Origin: Maridesulfovibrio sp. | Lineage (GTDB): Bacteria > Desulfobacterota > Desulfovibrionia > Desulfovibrionales > Desulfovibrionaceae | Reading direction: 5' to 3' | Assembly (NCBI RefSeq): GCF_963677005.1 | Contig: NZ_OY781616.1 | Location: 3,582,501 to 3,646,500, forward strand | Length of the DNA stretch: 64,000 bases | Shown: piece by piece, positions 36,077-44,237 of the stretch | Position numbering within the stretch: position 1 is the stretch's first letter | Layout of the letters: every line of letters begins with the position of its first letter | The notes under the pieces: generated by a model | The model's database searches: none | What the model was told of the DNA's origin: nothing | Seen by the model: only the letters and a program-made list of their open reading frames with translations | Made by a program: the position numbers and the translations under genes

Positions 36077-38758
36077 TCATTCCGTACGGTTGATGGGGAA
36101 CCAGATTTCATAGACGGTGCCTTCTCCGGGTGAACTTTTACATTCTATACGTCCTTTCAGGGCTCTGGTCACCAGGTTGTACACGAGGTGCATGCCCAGC
36201 CCAGCACTCCCGGAGCTTCTTGCCGTTGTATAGAACGGATCGAAGACCCTCATGACCTGCTCATTGTCCATGCCTATCCCGTCATCTGAATAGGTCAGTA
36301 AAATACCGTTGCCGTTCCGTTTGGCTTCGACTTTTATATGACCGTTTTCCCGGTCCGGGAATGCGTGTGTTATCGAGTTGTTGACCAGGTTTGTCAGTAC
36401 CTGCATAAGGGAGCCCGGTGAAATTCTTATTTCCAGCCCGTTGGGACATTCGACCTCAAGCGTGTGGTTGTGCTCCTTGGTTTTGGATTTGAGCGAGAGG
36501 GTTATACCTTTCAGGTATTCATTCAGGTTGATCTGCCTTATGTCATCGGAGGTCTGGTCTACCGCCAGCTGTTTGAAGTTGCTTATCAGTTTTGCCGAAC
36601 GCTCGAGATTTTTGACTATATTGCCGATTGCTTCACCGCCGGTATTGAGACATTTTTCCAAGTCCGAGCGTTTCATGGAGCCGTTGTTGAACCGGGTGCG
36701 GAGACCGAAGATCATCTCCTGCAGGAAAGACGCGCTGGTTACGCTTATACCAAGGGGGGTGTTTATCTCGTGGGCAACCCCGGCGACGAGTTCCCCCAGC
36801 GAAGCCATTTTTTCTGTTTCAACAAGCTTGTCCTGCGTCTGGCGAAGTTCGTCCATGGATTTGAGCAATGCCGAATTGGCGTTTTCCAGCTCTGTTGTCC
36901 GCATGGCGACTCTTTCCACGAGTTCTTTGTTCAGGGATTGAAGTTCCTGCTCGGCTTCCTTTACGCGGGTAATATCCATCGAGATAGTCAGTATCGCCGG
37001 TGTGTTGCTCTCTGTGGAGATATAAGGAACGCGCGTGGTCTCCACCCAATGAGTATTTCTGGATTTATCTATGTAACTTTCCTCGGTAAGCAGCTTTTCG
37101 TTGCGCTTGATTACAATGCGGTCATCCTCAAGGGTCCGGGCTGCTTCCACAGGGTTCCGTAAAATATCGGCAAGATTTTTGCCGGTTATGTCCTTGGCAT
37201 CAAAGCCCAGCCGATTGGCCTTCTTCCGGTTGACCAGCAGAAATTTTCCATCCAGGTCGTTTGCGTAAATGTCCTGCGGGAGCAGATCAATTATCTGCCG
37301 GAGCCTTGCCTCGCTTTCCCTTGCCTTTTGCATTGCTAGCCTGCTCGCCGTTACATTTTGTCCTTGAAGGAGGATAAAGCTGGGTTTTTTATTTTCCTCC
37401 AGTTGTACCGGGGAGAAGGTCCAGATAAAGAAATTGTATTTTTCGTTGTCGGCCTGAATCGGAATTTCGACAACAGGCGTGGCTCCTCCTTCGATGGTGT
37501 CCTTCAGGCCGGAATTCAGACGGTCTGCAAATTCCTGCGGAAAAATTTCGGAAATCGTCAGATTCGGGCTGAGTTCCCTTGTTGTGCCGGCAACCTCTTC
37601 TGCAGCAGGATTCATATCAAGTATTTTCCCATGCAGGTCGCAGGTGATGATGGGGGCCTTGGCAGATGAAAAAAGTTTCGAAATGTAGGTGCTGTTCTCG
37701 TCAAGGCGATTCACCATAGTCTCAAGGGCTGATCCCAGCTGGTTGAATTCCCTGACTTTTCCTTCCTCAAAACCCATATCCCGTTTCCCCTCCGCAACAC
37801 TTACCGCATAGTCTGTAAGTTTTCTAAGGGCGGCCAGAATATGCTTCTGCATGCCCCAGGCGGTCAGCACTGCCAGGACTGTTGCCAGCGTCAGCAGAAT
37901 GAGCAGGTTCTGCATGTAGTGCTTTTTCAGGGATTCAAATGCCGGGTTGTGACGGGAAAAGGTGAACAGCAGCGGGCTGTCGGATTTGTCCGGCAGCAGT
38001 TGAATTGCCGAAAACATGAGATCGTCCTGCATAAGGACCTGGCCTGTTCCGGCCTGTTCCGACCATTTCACAAGCCGCTTCATTTCCTGTGATGACGGGC
38101 TGGAGGTACTTATTATCAGTCTGTGCCTGCTGATCAGGGCCGCATTGATGGCTGCGGAGACTTTTTTCAGTCTGTCTATGAAGGATACGTTGGAATTGAG
38201 GTCCATGCCGCCATATAAAGTTCCGCAAATGTTCCCGGCCTCGTCATATATCGGAACCGTGCAGATGATCATGGTGCGAATATTGTTCATGGTTTGAAAT
38301 GAAAGGCATTCCCATGACGCATCGGTCAGGTCCGTCCTGCCGGTTCTGTTTTGGATTTGCAGAACCGGTAATTCGATGATTCCGGCTTCCACCCATTTTT
38401 TTCGGTCTTTCGTTAACACGGTCAGAACATCCATCAGGTATCCCTGCCGCGAACTCATGAAATCGTATAATATCCGGTCTACGCTGTCCCTGTTTCCCTC
38501 TTTTACCGCGGTTTTGAATTCCCGGTTTGCGGACATCTGCACAAGGTCGTCCTGTATGTCCTCAAGAATGTCGTCAAGTGTAAGTTCCACAAGGCTTTTG
38601 GTTTTTTCGGCATCAATTCCGAGTTCCGTTTCCAGTGAGCTTTTGGAAAGGTAGAAGGACCACGAAAAGATGAAAATCCCCATGACCATGACCAGAGTGA
38701 GCATGGGGATCAGCAACTGGGCTGTAAGCCCGTATGATCTTTCGGTCCGGTCCTTCAT
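36077..38758 (-). CDS. membrane sensor histidine kinase with periplasmic Cache-like domain, HAMP and two PAS
   Basis: The 893-residue kinase has a first membrane helix (about 10-32), a periplasmic region of about 270 residues that looks like a double Cache sensor, a second helix (about 290-310), HAMP, two PAS domains (about 360-480 and 500-610), a coiled coil, HisKA with AGVAHEINTPLG and HATPase with SSGSAGLGMHLVYNLV. It has no receiver and no partner regulator next to it. The start was set at the Met with GGAG 5 nt upstream; a longer frame adds 15 residues. Cache domains usually bind small organic ligands. Confidence 0.93.
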   Translation of the reverse strand: MKDRTERSYGLTAQLLIPMLTLVMVMGIFIFSWSFYLSKSSLETELGIDAEKTKSLVELTLDDILEDIQDDLVQMSANREFKTAVKEGNRDSVDRILYDFMSSRQGYLMDVLTVLTKDRKKWVEAGIIELPVLQIQNRTGRTDLTDASWECLSFQTMNNIRTMIICTVPIYDEAGNICGTLYGGMDLNSNVSFIDRLKKVSAAINAALISRHRLIISTSSPSSQEMKRLVKWSEQAGTGQVLMQDDLMFSAIQLLPDKSDSPLLFTFSRHNPAFESLKKHYMQNLLILLTLATVLAVLTAWGMQKHILAALRKLTDYAVSVAEGKRDMGFEEGKVREFNQLGSALETMVNRLDENSTYISKLFSSAKAPIITCDLHGKILDMNPAAEEVAGTTRELSPNLTISEIFPQEFADRLNSGLKDTIEGGATPVVEIPIQADNEKYNFFIWTFSPVQLEENKKPSFILLQGQNVTASRLAMQKARESEARLRQIIDLLPQDIYANDLDGKFLLVNRKKANRLGFDAKDITGKNLADILRNPVEAARTLEDDRIVIKRNEKLLTEESYIDKSRNTHWVETTRVPYISTESNTPAILTISMDITRVKEAEQELQSLNKELVERVAMRTTELENANSALLKSMDELRQTQDKLVETEKMASLGELVAGVAHEINTPLGISVTSASFLQEMIFGLRTRFNNGSMKRSDLEKCLNTGGEAIGNIVKNLERSAKLISNFKQLAVDQTSDDIRQINLNEYLKGITLSLKSKTKEHNHTLEVECPNGLEIRISPGSLMQVLTNLVNNSITHAFPDRENGHIKVEAKRNGNGILLTYSDDGIGMDNEQVMRVFDPFYTTARSSGSAGLGMHLVYNLVTRALKGRIECKSSPGEGTVYEIWFPINRTE

Positions 38759-38911
38759 CTGTTCTCCGATTCTTCGTGTAGTTTGAAACGTATGATCCAG
38801 CATACCAGAGTTGCGTGCAAAAGTAAGGGGGAAGGGCGGTCCGTTTAACGATAAGCGTACCCGGCTGTATCTTTTCAGTGCTGCGGCAGTTGTTTTGCGT
38901 AGGCAATGAAT

Positions 38912-38983: not shown

Positions 38984-39622
38984 TCAGGATGCGTGTGCCG
39001 GGACGGCCCTGTTGCGGATGAGGGATACGGCCATATACACGAACGGCGTATCCAGCAGGGCGATTGATATTTTCGCAAACCACTGTCCGATAATGATATC
39101 GGTCACCGGCATGATTCCGTAGAAGGCGATTGTTACGAAGATTGTCGAGTCGAGAAGCTGTGAGATTACAGTAGAAACATTGTTTCTCAGCCAGAGGTGT
39201 TTTTCTCCGGTTATTCCCCGCAGCAGGTGAAACAGCCATACATCATGAGTCTGGCTGACCAGATAGGCCACAAGTGAGGCCAGGACAATTCTGGGTGTGT
39301 TGGAAAGTACGGAGGCAAAGCCTTCCTGCCCGTTCCAGAATGGTGCCGGAGTCCAGTGCAATGCCGCCCAGGAAAGCACGATGGCAGCAATAAGGGCAAT
39401 GAATCCGCATTGCACCACTTCGTTGGCTCTTTCCCTGCCCCATACTTCGCTGATTACGTCCGAGACAATGAATGTCAGCGAATATGCGAGTACTCCGGCA
39501 GGAGCATAGAACCCGAAGATGTTGATTATTTTGGAAGAAACTACGGCCGCAATTACCAGTGAGCCAATAAAAAGACTGGTCAGAAGTGTGAACGCCTTGC
39601 GTTCAAAAGTTGAAGAGAGCAT
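38984..39622 (-). CDS. queuosine precursor transporter (YhhQ/DUF165 family)
   Basis: The 212-residue membrane protein has about six transmembrane segments and belongs to the VUT/YhhQ (DUF165) family, which imports queuosine precursors such as preQ0 and preQ1. Family landmarks include the N-terminal segment ending in FGFYAPAGVLAYSLTF, FIVSDVISEVWGRERAN and the late DSTIFVTIAFYG. It is divergent from queF, which reduces preQ0 to preQ1, so the pair forms a queuosine salvage and synthesis locus. AAGGGA precedes the ATG. A structured element lies 32-104 nt upstream in the leader. Confidence 0.92.
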   Translation of the reverse strand: MLSSTFERKAFTLLTSLFIGSLVIAAVVSSKIINIFGFYAPAGVLAYSLTFIVSDVISEVWGRERANEVVQCGFIALIAAIVLSWAALHWTPAPFWNGQEGFASVLSNTPRIVLASLVAYLVSQTHDVWLFHLLRGITGEKHLWLRNNVSTVISQLLDSTIFVTIAFYGIMPVTDIIIGQWFAKISIALLDTPFVYMAVSLIRNRAVPAHAS

Positions 39623-39915: not shown

Positions 39916-40419
39916 GTGAAGACAACCAGAAGTCAGGACAGGACAGAACAGCTTGTCTCTCTAGGAAAAGCAGGGGCGACAGAATATAATTATGACTCAC
40001 CATCTCCGGAAATTCTCGAGACTTTTCCTAATAATTTTCCAGACAGGCCTTATATAATAAGCATTGAATATCCTGAGTACACTTCCCTGTGTCCGGTTAC
40101 CGGACAGCCTGATTTTGCCACGATAATAGTGGAGTACATACCGGACGAACTCTGCGTGGAGTCAAAAAGTTTCAAGCTCTATATGGGCTCATACCGCAAT
40201 CACCAGTCTTTCATGGAAACCATCACCAATAATATGCTTGATCATTTTGTCGGGCGCCTTGCTCCTTTATGGATGCGGGTCAAAGGTATTTTTTCTCCCC
40301 GCGGCGGTACAGCCCTGCATGTTTTTGCCGAACATTATAAAGAGGAAAGCAGTCTCTACCCCCGCGTGCGCGAAACCGTCCGGGAATGGAAAATGGAGTC
40401 CGGGAGGCACTCTTCTTAA
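39916..40419 (+). CDS. queF: preQ0 reductase QueF (NADPH-dependent 7-cyano-7-deazaguanine reductase)
   Basis: The 167-residue enzyme reduces the nitrile of preQ0 to the amine of preQ1 on the way to queuosine in tRNA. The thioimide-forming Cys and partner Asp are in EYTSLCPVTGQPDFA near residue 55, and the substrate motif ESKSFKLYMGSYRNH follows near 79. It is the short, single-domain type. The start is GTG with GGAG 7 nt upstream. It is divergent from the precursor transporter gene. Confidence 0.95.
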   Translation: MKTTRSQDRTEQLVSLGKAGATEYNYDSPSPEILETFPNNFPDRPYIISIEYPEYTSLCPVTGQPDFATIIVEYIPDELCVESKSFKLYMGSYRNHQSFMETITNNMLDHFVGRLAPLWMRVKGIFSPRGGTALHVFAEHYKEESSLYPRVRETVREWKMESGRHSS

Positions 40420-40495: not shown

Positions 40496-42859
40496 TCAGC
40501 TCATGTACGGGTTGCACAATTCGTTTATCGTGCCGATTATTTTATCTTTTGATATCGGTTTGGTGAGGAAGGAGTCGCACCCTGCGGCCATGATTTTTTC
40601 CTGGGCCTCGGTCAGTGCGTGGGCGGTCAAGGCCACAACCATGCTTGGCTTGGTGGAGGTGTTGCTTTCCCAGGTCCTTATTTTGCGCGTGCACTCGTAG
40701 CCGTCCATGACCGGCATTTCAATATCCATGAAAACTATGTCGAAACGCTGGTCCTGAACCTTTTTGAACCCTTCCTCCCCGTTGTGCGCAATGTCCAGTT
40801 TGTGGGGAAGCTCTTTAAGGAACAGCTGGATCAGCATGCAGTTGGCTTTGTTGTCTTCCACCAGCAGTATGTTCAGGGAGCGCATTTTTCTGCTGGCGGT
40901 GCGGGCGGAATTAATGCTTACAACTTTTGACGATTTATCCGCATAAGCCTCGTTTTCGATAAGTCTGGACCGTTCAAAGATGTCTTTGGCGGATTTTTCC
41001 AGACTGTACAGGTCCGGAGGGGAAAGCTGCACCATTCCCTTGAAGTTATCTATGTAGTCGTGCCCGACTGTGGTCAGGAGGATTATTCTTTCCTCCGCAA
41101 CCCCGAGCTGTGTGAGTGATGAAATTGTCTGCTGCCAGCTCCATTCGTGGATGGAGTCCCGCACCAGATACAGATCATGAGAGTGCGGCAGGGCCGCTTT
41201 ATCCAGAATGAATGATCTTGCCTGCTCAAAACTCTGGGCTTTTTCTATTTTGGAGGTCCTTGATGCCAGGCGTGTTGCAAATGAATGCCTCGAATAATCC
41301 TGATCATCAAGCACGAGGATTGCTTTCCCTTTCAGGGGAGAATTATGGATTGATCCCCGGGGGTCGCGCTCGAAGGGGATTTTAAGGTGGACACTGGTTC
41401 CGAAGCCTTTTTTGCTTTCAATCCATATTTTTCCGCCCATGGCTTCACACAGGGATTTGCATATGGATAGTCCCAGTCCCGTTCCCCCGTACTGGCGCGT
41501 TGTGGAGGAGTCCGCCTGAGTGAACCTGTCGAAAATAGCTTCCACCTTGTCCTCGGGAATACCTATTCCGCTGTCCCGGACCGCGAAATGGATAAGCACC
41601 TGATTTTCCGAGTCCACCGCCGCCGATTGGGTAAGCGATGTTTCGACCACGACAAAGCCGCGTTCTGTAAATTTTATGGCATTTCCGATCAGGTTTACAA
41701 AAATCTGCTGCAGCCTTGAAGCATCGCCCATTACCTGAACCGGGACTTCTCTGTTTATGCTGTAGGCGAGTTCCAGCCCCTTGCCGTGTCCTGCGTGCGA
41801 AGTTACCCTGAATGCCTTGCCGATTATTCTGTCCAGGTCTATTTCATTGTTTTCAAAAGCGATTTCTCCAGCTTCAATCTTGCTCAAGTCCAGAATTTCA
41901 TTGATCAGGTGCAGCAGTGCTTCTCCGGATTCCTGCAGAATGCCCACAAAGCGTTTCTGCTCGCTGTTCATCTCCGACTCCGCCAGAATCTCCGCCATAC
42001 CCAGAATGGCGTTCATGGGAGTCCTTATTTCGTGGCTCATGGCTGCGAGAAATTGTGATTTAGCAACAGTACCCTTGGCCGCTTCAACAGCCATTGCTTC
42101 CGATTTTGCAATGGCCTTGACCAACTGCCTGTTGGCCGCTTCAAGCTCGTGGGTGCGTTCCTGAACTTTCACTTCCAGATTTTTGTACAGCCCCTCCAGG
42201 TTCCTGCTCATATTATTGAAGTTGAGGGCCAGCATACCTATCTCATCCATGCGGTTGCCAAGGTTGACCGTGACGAACTGGCGGCGGGCTATCTTGCGTG
42301 TACTTGTGCCCAGAAGTCGAAGCGGCGCAATTATGATCCTCTGAAAAAATGCGTCCAGAGCGATAAGGGTGCAGATAAGGCAGGCGCTGAAAAGCATGAC
42401 CAGGTTTATGGTCTTGTTGCCGATTTCCTTTTTTACCTTGTCCAGTTTCATGCCGATTTCAACCCGGCCTATATTTTCATTATCCACCGTGATGGGGCTT
42501 GAGACGATCATGATGTCATCCCCATACGACGGCTTGTTCTTTCTTACATGGGCCTTGGAAATTATGTTGCCGGACTGGAGGAGGGGCGCTCCGTCCCGGT
42601 CGAATATTTCGCAGAAAGCAACCTGCGGAGACTGCTCTATGGAAAGAGCCAGGTCTTCAACCAGAAAGAAGCTGAATCTGGGCAGATACTCGGCGCAGGA
42701 GCGTGCGGCAAGAGCGGCGATTCTGTTGCCGTGTTCGTACAGGTTGTCCTTTAGCAGCTTCTGCTGGGAATCAACTATGTAGTACCCCAGCGAAAAGAAG
42801 AACAGCAGAAGGATAAGGCCTGCGCCAAGTGAAATTTTCAGTCTTAGACTGTCAGTCAT
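40496..42859 (-). CDS. membrane hybrid histidine kinase with two receivers, paired with BMP-type protein
   Basis: The 787-residue kinase has a membrane helix near 8-28, a periplasmic domain of about 120 residues, a second helix near 150-170, HAMP, a coiled coil, HisKA with MSHEIRTPMN near 275, HATPase with GTGLGLSI, and two receivers. The first receiver begins ILVLDDQDYSR but its acceptor position reads LYLVRDSIH, so it is probably inactive. The second has FMDIEMPVMDG and the late Lys. It starts 24 nt after a secreted BMP-family protein gene, with no ABC-transporter genes, so that protein likely presents a ligand to the kinase. Confidence 0.94.
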   Translation of the reverse strand: MTDSLRLKISLGAGLILLLFFFSLGYYIVDSQQKLLKDNLYEHGNRIAALAARSCAEYLPRFSFFLVEDLALSIEQSPQVAFCEIFDRDGAPLLQSGNIISKAHVRKNKPSYGDDIMIVSSPITVDNENIGRVEIGMKLDKVKKEIGNKTINLVMLFSACLICTLIALDAFFQRIIIAPLRLLGTSTRKIARRQFVTVNLGNRMDEIGMLALNFNNMSRNLEGLYKNLEVKVQERTHELEAANRQLVKAIAKSEAMAVEAAKGTVAKSQFLAAMSHEIRTPMNAILGMAEILAESEMNSEQKRFVGILQESGEALLHLINEILDLSKIEAGEIAFENNEIDLDRIIGKAFRVTSHAGHGKGLELAYSINREVPVQVMGDASRLQQIFVNLIGNAIKFTERGFVVVETSLTQSAAVDSENQVLIHFAVRDSGIGIPEDKVEAIFDRFTQADSSTTRQYGGTGLGLSICKSLCEAMGGKIWIESKKGFGTSVHLKIPFERDPRGSIHNSPLKGKAILVLDDQDYSRHSFATRLASRTSKIEKAQSFEQARSFILDKAALPHSHDLYLVRDSIHEWSWQQTISSLTQLGVAEERIILLTTVGHDYIDNFKGMVQLSPPDLYSLEKSAKDIFERSRLIENEAYADKSSKVVSINSARTASRKMRSLNILLVEDNKANCMLIQLFLKELPHKLDIAHNGEEGFKKVQDQRFDIVFMDIEMPVMDGYECTRKIRTWESNTSTKPSMVVALTAHALTEAQEKIMAAGCDSFLTKPISKDKIIGTINELCNPYMS

Positions 42860-42883
42860 CTTTTAAGTCTGTTCAACCCTGTG

Positions 42884-43885
42884 TTATGAATCCGTACTGC
42901 GGGCGGAAGGTGCGGGTTCAACACTGATTTCTTTTTTTATTATCTTGTCGCGTATCTCGGATATCCGGTGAAATATTTCATCGGGAATCATGTTCCTGGT
43001 GTAGAGCATGGGGCTGAGGCCGACTCCGTTTTCCTTTAAACCGTAAAAGGACGGACCCGGTTTGAATTTCCCGAGCATAACGGATTTAAGTTCGTTGTAG
43101 CAGGCAACATCAAGTTTTTTAATCATGCTGGTGAGGACTGTGCCCTTGGCCAGTGAGTCCTGGTCCGAATCTACTCCGATGGCAAATTTGCCGGAAGTTC
43201 TGGCGGCCTCTATTATCCCGTTTCCGGTTAATCCGGCAACTGTGAAAATCGTGTCCGCACCATTGCGATACTGGTTCATAGCCATGGCATATCCCTTTTG
43301 CGGGTTCTGAAATCCCGAAAAATCACCCGGAGGGGAGACATAGTCTATGTCTATTTTGATGTCCGGCACGCCGTATTTCGCTCCGGCGACATAACCCATT
43401 TCGAAATCAGCTACCGGGGGGACTCTGGTTCCGCCGATAAAACCGATTTTACCTGTTTTACTCATCAGTGCAGCCAGTGCTCCGGCCAGGAAGGAGCCTT
43501 CCTTCTGGTTGAAAACCACAGAGGATACATTGTCCCTGCCGCGGACCGGAACTTCAATCACTATGAATTTTTTATCCGGGTATTTCGGGCTGTCTTCCCT
43601 GACAAGTTTTTCGTGTTGGGCTCCGATCAGCAACAGCACATCGCACTGCCGTATCAGGGCCGTAAAATCCTCTTCTGTAGACTCTCCGTTTTTGCCCGGC
43701 TCAAGTATGATAAGCTTGAAGTTGAATTCCTGCTGTGCCTTGCGTACTCCGCCGTAGCTCATGTCATTGAATGACAGGTCGCCGAGTCCGGACGCGCCGG
43801 TCACAAATCCGACCACCGGTTGTTTTGCCCATGCCGGCCCTGAAAAGGTCAGCATAATCAGCAGAGATAGAATTACAAATCGCAT
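42884..43885 (-). CDS. BMP-family (Med/PnrA-like) periplasmic binding protein
   Basis: This 333-residue protein has a signal peptide (cleavage after GPAWA) and the BMP fold related to periplasmic nucleoside-binding proteins. Landmarks are VGFVTGASGLGDLSFNDMSYGG, a central GKIGFIGG and VDSDQDSLAKGTVLTSMIKKLD. There is no lipobox, so it should be free in the periplasm. Family members usually feed purine nucleoside ABC importers, but no ABC genes are here; a hybrid kinase gene follows by 24 nt. A sensory role similar to LuxP with LuxQ is inferred. Confidence 0.9.
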   Translation of the reverse strand: MRFVILSLLIMLTFSGPAWAKQPVVGFVTGASGLGDLSFNDMSYGGVRKAQQEFNFKLIILEPGKNGESTEEDFTALIRQCDVLLLIGAQHEKLVREDSPKYPDKKFIVIEVPVRGRDNVSSVVFNQKEGSFLAGALAALMSKTGKIGFIGGTRVPPVADFEMGYVAGAKYGVPDIKIDIDYVSPPGDFSGFQNPQKGYAMAMNQYRNGADTIFTVAGLTGNGIIEAARTSGKFAIGVDSDQDSLAKGTVLTSMIKKLDVACYNELKSVMLGKFKPGPSFYGLKENGVGLSPMLYTRNMIPDEIFHRISEIRDKIIKKEISVEPAPSARSTDS

Positions 43886-44237
43886 CGTTTCCCCGTCTGT
43901 ATCTTTGTATAAGCTGTTTTGATATAGCGGATCGGTCGCAGGACCGGACTGTCATCTGTTTTATAAATAAGCCGTATATCTTTAAAGGCTCTTTCAGGCA
44001 ACAATTGTGTGTAGATGACGGTGTTGAACGGTTTTATAGCGGAATGCTGCAGGAAATAAAAATGCTGAGACAAAACAGATGCTACAATCTGTCTTGTCTC
44101 AGCATTATTTAGGTATCGGAATAGATTCCATTATCAGGTTGGCCGATGCCATATCCTGTTTAACTGTGAATTTTATACAGAGTAATCAATACCCCGCTCA
44201 ATCCGGAGAATTACTCGTAAAAGAAGTTAACGGCAAT
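43886..44237. other. intergenic region with terminator of the EamA gene
   Basis: The 352 nt contain the upstream region of the BMP-protein gene and, at 44061-44106, a long hairpin. I see no gene. Confidence 0.5.
44061..44106 (-). terminator. terminator of the EamA transporter gene
   Basis: AATGCTGAGACAAAACAGAT pairs with ATCTGTCTTGTCTCAGCATT (one mismatch) around a 6-nt loop. On the minus strand TTTATTT follows. It lies 132 nt beyond the EamA stop codon. Confidence 0.82.

Follow-up and report, generated by a model that had tools for sequence, protein, structure and literature searches.

Binding-protein-dependent sensor kinases are already known, and the proposed use of the BMP family in such a system is, judging by the literature found, the new element described here. 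LuxP, the binding-protein receptor of the hybrid kinase LuxQ in autoinducer-2 (AI-2) quorum sensing, belongs to a family different from BMP; the family of AioX is likewise not BMP but Phosphonate-bd-like, and TorT-TorS is a further precedent for a binding protein working with a kinase. In the arsenite system AioX-AioS-AioR, as described in the parts of the source available to us (PMC7533571), the gene of a periplasmic binding protein precedes the kinase gene, this protein acts as the kinase's ligand receptor, and the response regulator with which AioS works is an adjacent one. We analysed a stretch of 64,000 nucleotides (the window) from Maridesulfovibrio sp., whose genome has 4.26 Mb (contig NZ_OY781616.1, positions 3,582,501 to 3,646,500). 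On its reverse strand a gene for a secreted BMP/PnrA-type solute-binding protein of 333 amino acids (42884-43885), the proposed ligand receptor, is followed 24 nucleotides (nt) downstream by a gene for a hybrid histidine kinase of 787 amino acids (40496-42859). We consider it fairly probable that the pair is a binding-protein-dependent sensor kinase of three components, namely a ligand, the BMP protein and the kinase, and that its likely role is to report a nucleoside-like molecule from outside the cell instead of importing it.

The order of the two genes is that of aioX and aioS, but the window kinase is a hybrid and no response regulator gene adjoins it in the window. LuxP/LuxQ had been cited as a parallel by the sequence-only reading, a first interpretation of this DNA made without database searches; the comparison is an analogy only, since the window kinase has no match to PF09308 (LuxQ-periplasm) and senses with a single small unit of Cache/PDC type. 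The LuxQ-periplasm match (45.5 bits, cut-off 25.7) falls on another kinase of the window (36077-38803, reverse strand), which has PAS domains, lacks a receiver, and has no binding-protein gene adjoining it. PnrA/TmpC, BmpA, BmpD and Lbp have their fold and nucleoside-stacking residues in common with the window BMP protein and are described as parts of ATP-binding cassette (ABC) importers in the sections of the sources at hand (PMC13325309, PMC7093131), whereas the window BMP gene has no ABC genes beside it and its protein has no visible lipobox and a Gly in place of Asp27 of PnrA. The dCache_1 purine sensors, as far as the available text describes them (PMC11245519), also bring purine-type signals to kinases and other receptors; they bind the purine in their own sensor domain, while a separate binding protein is proposed here. 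A literature search, which did not take in one key review of binding proteins in signalling, found no published report of a BMP-kinase pair.

The product of 42884-43885 matches PF02608 with 214.5 bits against a curated cut-off of 24.1 (Pfam) and starts with a cleavable-looking signal peptide, read by eye as MRFVILSLLIMLTFSGPAWA/KQ. Its AlphaFold2 (AF2) model, with a mean predicted local distance difference test score (pLDDT) of 88.9, has a two-lobe fold, and the best PDB matches are guanosine-bound Lbp, PnrA and BmpD (7x0r, 6yab, 2fqw and 6shu; TMq 0.82-0.84). A lipobox pattern was found in none of 15 BMP orthologues and was not seen in the window protein. A C-terminal 'MxYTR' motif, considered as a marker of kinase-linked BMP proteins, was dropped, as a similar stretch occurs in three ABC-linked proteins (L177-L179; numbers with L denote compared loci).

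The kinase consists of a transmembrane (TM) segment, a Cache/PDC-like periplasmic domain, a second TM segment, HAMP, HisKA, HATPase_c, a degenerate receiver and a receiver. The two TM segments, at about residues 11-29 and 153-171, flank a periplasmic stretch of ~120 amino acids; key residues were located at His276 in HisKA and at Asp712 and Lys767 in the C-terminal receiver, and the internal receiver-like stretch has, in our reading, Arg where Asp is expected. The kinase is thus intact and has an extracytoplasmic domain bounded by two TM helices, as expected of a solute-binding-protein-activated sensor kinase. These results bear out the description, in the sequence-only reading, of a secreted PnrA/Med-like gene followed 24 nt on by a kinase with a small periplasmic domain.

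The sensor domain itself (42410-42772, reverse strand, about residues 30-150) is the proposed docking site for the binding protein. Taken alone it stayed under the Pfam curated cut-offs (ArlS_N 24.2 versus 27; sCache_3_2 17.1 versus 28.4), and its sequence profile retrieved no solved homologue (best E 0.066; DcuS E 1.6), so the fold was assigned by structural matching of a model. In the AF2 model of residues 1-240 (pLDDT 80.9, with loop 97-111 below 50), the domain folds as a Cache/PDC unit. The best structural match of the model is WalK, in the integrative model 9a5d, with Z 15.5 and a root-mean-square deviation (rmsd) of 2.6 over 231 aligned residues; next come a LapD orthologue (4u64), with Z 11.9 and an rmsd of 3.7 over 119 residues, and CitA (8biy), with Z 11.1 and an rmsd of 2.2 over 96. 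The LapD domain binds a protein partner.

Conservation of the pair within the genus is evidence for a functional link. Orthologous BMP proteins are present in 15 of 16 same-genus relatives (54-72% identity), and all 15 have the gene of the orthologous kinase (61-75% identity) directly after the BMP gene on the same strand, with gaps of 23-90 nt, although the kinase of L031, a short contig, ends after 208 amino acids at the contig end. Including the window's own genome, BMP and kinase genes are adjacent in 16/16 genus genomes with this BMP clade, or 16/17 overall. When 58 genomes were searched with the sensor part, close matches (61-100% identity) appeared in each of the 16 genus genomes that have the BMP gene and in no others, while the 17th, G002, has neither this BMP nor a sensor match. 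Upstream of the BMP gene, on the same strand, are an AraC-type gene and an EamA-family transporter gene, and both precede the pair in 14 of the 15 relatives. Because 15/16 relatives keep the pair, 14/15 of them with the same upstream order, its adjacency exceeds chance. A terminator-like hairpin of 20 pairs with a T-rich tail (44061-44106, reverse strand) parts the BMP gene from the EamA gene, which points to a separate transcription unit for the pair; the scan gave 10 such sites versus 8.1 in shuffles, and this stem (44106-44061) is the longest.

ABC ATPase and permease genes are the usual company of a BMP gene, though the family does not require them. None is found among the neighbours of the pair in the window, as had been noticed from the sequence, nor near the 15 BMP orthologues, for which about 8 kb on each side were examined (less for L031, owing to its short contig). 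Constant company with BMP-type ABC genes, which the sequence-only reading had named as telling against sensing, was therefore seen in none of the genus orthologues (0/15). Gene calls in the compared loci were the longest non-overlapping open reading frames (ORFs), a crude procedure, and as a consequence L096 gave no BMP call and L109, L110 and L126 were read by hand.

The window's own genome has three PF02608 genes. One paralogue (L040) opens an operon of BMP, hybrid kinase and HPt genes, an arrangement present in 12/12 loci examined, and 16 of the 17 genus genomes contain a second sensor match, a weaker one. The remaining gene, at L039, is the sole ABC-linked BMP of the genome, next to an ABC ATPase and two permeases; its product belongs to another subfamily than the window protein. 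In four relatives a further BMP gene is followed by a gene for a HAMP-GGDEF protein (Pfam-confirmed for L057, the other three being alike). The examined stretches of the 12 paralogue loci and the four diguanylate cyclase-linked loci contain no BMP-type ATPase or permease.

These observations bear on an alternative that we regard as unlikely, in which the BMP protein is an orphan binding protein of a distant ABC importer and the kinase senses something else directly by its Cache domain, the two genes sharing a unit because the kinase controls the importer. BMP proteins of known role serve ABC importers, in the portions of the sources consulted (PMC7093131, PMC13325309). The genome has 13 matches to the permease family BPD_transp_2, of which only the pair adjacent to L039 was examined, so that the BMP protein may serve a distant permease. 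Cache domains such as those of CitA and DcuS bind small molecules directly. On the other side stand the lack of ABC genes near the 15 orthologues, the 12 paralogue loci and the four cyclase-linked loci, the permeases, ATPase and different pocket that the sole ABC-linked BMP has of its own, and the joint absence of BMP and sensor in G002. The earlier claim that a signal is sensed and not imported thus gains ground at the level of the genome, through the conserved pair, its joint absence in G002, the absence of ABC genes and the separate subfamily of the ABC-linked protein.

Outside the genus the arrangement recurs in scattered loci. An additional BMP-kinase pair is present in the same family (L041). 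A search for related loci gave 11, two of them same-genus (L089 and L090, which coincide with L031 and L036 and were counted once), and among the nine others the kinase gene is next to the BMP gene in four (L091, L093, L094 and L099). In two of these, from Desulfobacterota of other orders, two tandem BMP genes precede one kinase gene (L091:5998-8202 and L094:5767-7976), and L099, from a Bermanella metagenome-assembled genome, has a non-hybrid kinase next to BMP. At L092 the gene after BMP encodes a SpoIIE protein, and this protein has the sensor stretch as well. No receptor was recognised downstream of BMP at L095-L098, with a receiver-kinase-like gene 160 nt upstream at L097. The periplasmic stretch is common to the kinases of both BMP-linked clades and to the receptors of L091-L094 and L099.

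Several results weigh against the pair as a sensor. At L093 the kinase gene is 651 nt from the BMP gene, with an opposite-strand ORF between them. Among 395 genomes of the phylum, 24 gave BMP matches at E 1e-40 or better, 25 in all with two of them own; none of the 23 non-own matches, which lie outside the genus, was recognised as kinase-linked, and five are ABC-linked (L177, L178, L179, L183 and L185). Three same-family genomes (L167-L169, g33) have a close BMP relative with no kinase or ABC gene recognised adjoining it. The possible service to a distant permease, discussed above, belongs here too. Known couples speak on both sides, according to the part of the source available (PMC11113362): in favour of the pair, 10 of 11 characterised binding-protein/kinase couples have adjoining or closely spaced genes; against it, neither of the binding proteins PA0602 and AgtB, whose genes lie near that of AgtS, bound the AgtS sensor domain. 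As nearby binding proteins can fail to bind a kinase domain, the link between BMP and kinase is one that we infer. Since 0/23 phylum matches outside the genus are kinase-linked, the pair is a feature of the genus and of scattered relatives. The loose spacing at L093 and the orphan BMP of g33 would also suit a chance neighbourhood of two functionally unlinked genes, but we hold this to be very improbable given the pair in 15/15 relatives with the gene, the loss of both in one genome, the paralogous operon with its added HPt gene and the same arrangement in other orders.

The BMP tree, with 73 proteins (L092, L181, L184, L187, L188 and L189 left out), is in favour of the sensor reading: the kinase label, carried by 35 rows, needs two changes versus a shuffled mean of 24.5, and the eight ABC-linked rows fall on other branches. 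Support is weak (86/58) for the fork at which three orphans join 34 of the 35 kinase-linked rows, and the clustering is favoured by the sampling, because kinase-linked relatives were found by their likeness to the window protein. BMP-kinase fusions were sought as proof of contact and none was found; the long frames, several of them among the 23 non-own phylum matches, join BMP to other domains. Two of them, of ~595 amino acids, are by Pfam fusions with dCache / HK-GC-Chemotax_sensor and have no recognised output domain (L170:5595-7382 and L171:5088-6881), L172 and L174 being called BMP-dCache from length and place in the tree only. In two others BMP is fused with a second binding-protein domain, SBP_bac_3 (Pfam; L181:5670-7427 and L184:5047-6732).

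Residues that stack on or hold the nucleoside are known for BmpA and PnrA, in the portions of the reports available (PMC13325309, PMC7093131). In the alignment of this cradle, F39, N40, F161, F192, V238, D239 and K256 of the window protein correspond to F36, N37, F161, F186, V237, D238 and K260 of PnrA, and F39, F161, F192, V238, D239 and K256 are kept in 16/16 orthologues, with Tyr for F39 in four of the 16. The pocket of L039 differs, with Tyr, Trp, Asn and Trp replacing F39, F192, D239 and K256. Asp27 of PnrA, at the base edge, is replaced by Gly30 in 16/16 orthologues, and in kinase-linked proteins from beyond the genus, seven in all (L041, L091 twice, L093, L094 twice and L099), the site is also Gly. 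ABC-linked L177, L178, L179 and L183 keep the Asp, and members of the paralogue clade show Ser, Asp or Gly. Judged by the aligned residues and the model, the ligand of the window protein is likely of nucleoside type. The proposal of a purine nucleoside or related signal is therefore retained as to the nucleoside class, but its 'purine' part is unsupported owing to the replacement of Asp27.

The change at this site also prompts a variant that we think improbable, in which BMP and kinase cooperate but the ligand may be a modified or deaza-nucleoside, for example of the queuosine type, and the active form of BMP may be the empty one. Every orthologue has Gly30 at the place of Asp27, the residue in contact with the base edge in PnrA, and beside the pair in the window, divergent and between the two kinases, are a Vut_1 family gene (38984-39622, reverse strand), which we take to be of the queuosine precursor transporter family, and a QueF-like gene (39916-40419, forward strand). 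However, the lists of genes neighbouring the pair in the 15 orthologue stretches include neither the QueF-like nor the Vut_1 gene.

In the sensor reading that we favour, the exported BMP protein would close around a nucleoside-like ligand once in the periplasm, and BMP in its loaded or empty form would dock on the kinase's small periplasmic domain, which is Cache/PDC-like. Docking would alter autophosphorylation at His276, and the signal would pass by Asp712 of the C-terminal receiver to an HPt protein and then to a response regulator, both encoded elsewhere. We infer the docking, the direction of its effect, the identity of the ligand and the relay beyond the kinase. By analogy, an HPt step is likely, because the paralogous operon in the same genome has its own HPt gene. 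The genome has 25 HPt matches, and the assignment of one of them, or of a regulator, to the kinase was given up for want of a basis for choosing among them.

The sensor domain has a wider distribution than its BMP partner. Its profile matches 59 of the 395 phylum genomes at E 1e-5, and none of the 29 non-own loci listed has a BMP gene within the examined stretch. In 21 of 28 loci listed (the tally is without L100, which is own, and L108, at a contig edge), the upstream gene encodes a binding protein of another family: Phosphonate-bd in 12, PBP_like_2 in five, ABC_sub_bind in three and SBP_bac_5 in one. The other seven upstream genes are YfiR-like (one), radical SAM (three) or of no family (three, one of them on the other strand); counted by genus, a binding protein lies upstream in 17/22. 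As a control, 4-6 of 25 genes upstream of dCache_1 receptors in 39 genomes match binding-protein families, a range given because the matches might not fall on one protein, with five of 30 loci dropped for lack of an upstream ORF. The difference between 21/28 and 6/25 has a one-sided Fisher p = 2e-4; the control neighbours include opposite-strand genes, while the one such case of the tested set (L124) was scored as a miss. The proteins carrying the sensor domain include kinases and chemoreceptors, the latter by local profile. In family f4 the domain heads kinases of 1250-1270 amino acids, with a PBP_like_2 gene upstream. The window's own genome has a third binding-protein/kinase pair at L191:4109-7854 (C1, about 108.6-112.4 kb), where a Peripla_BP_6 gene overlaps a hybrid kinase gene with sCache_3_2 and an HPt gene is nearby. 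Pfam matches at L191, L192 and L195 underlie these last two observations.

Not every neighbour is a binding protein. A radical SAM-SPASM gene precedes the sensor-domain kinase at L101, L102 and L121, and a YfiR/HmsC-like gene (L119:1755-2345) lies directly before another.

We tentatively propose, at somewhat less than even confidence, that the small Cache/PDC domain belongs to a family of dedicated binding-protein readers. As one receptor module it would dock binding proteins from many unrelated families, namely BMP, Phosphonate-bd, PBP_like_2, ABC_sub_bind, SBP_bac_5 and Peripla_BP_6, and be joined to interchangeable outputs, among them kinases, chemoreceptors, a SpoIIE protein and perhaps the cyclase of group C, whose sensor stretch is loosely alike only. 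Importer parts would thus have been recruited repeatedly as sensors, and the BMP branch would add extracellular nucleoside-type compounds to what they perceive.

The signals of most sensor kinases are obscure, in part since some kinases read them through binding proteins. If the proposed role is true, the BMP/PnrA family, which serves import only in the cases read, would also act as a kinase receptor, and every PnrA-type protein of the genus with examined surroundings would be part of a sensor. Each of 16 species would then have two kinases with a testable class of ligands, the nucleosides, and the sequence profile of the sensor would single out receptors that are likely read through binding proteins.

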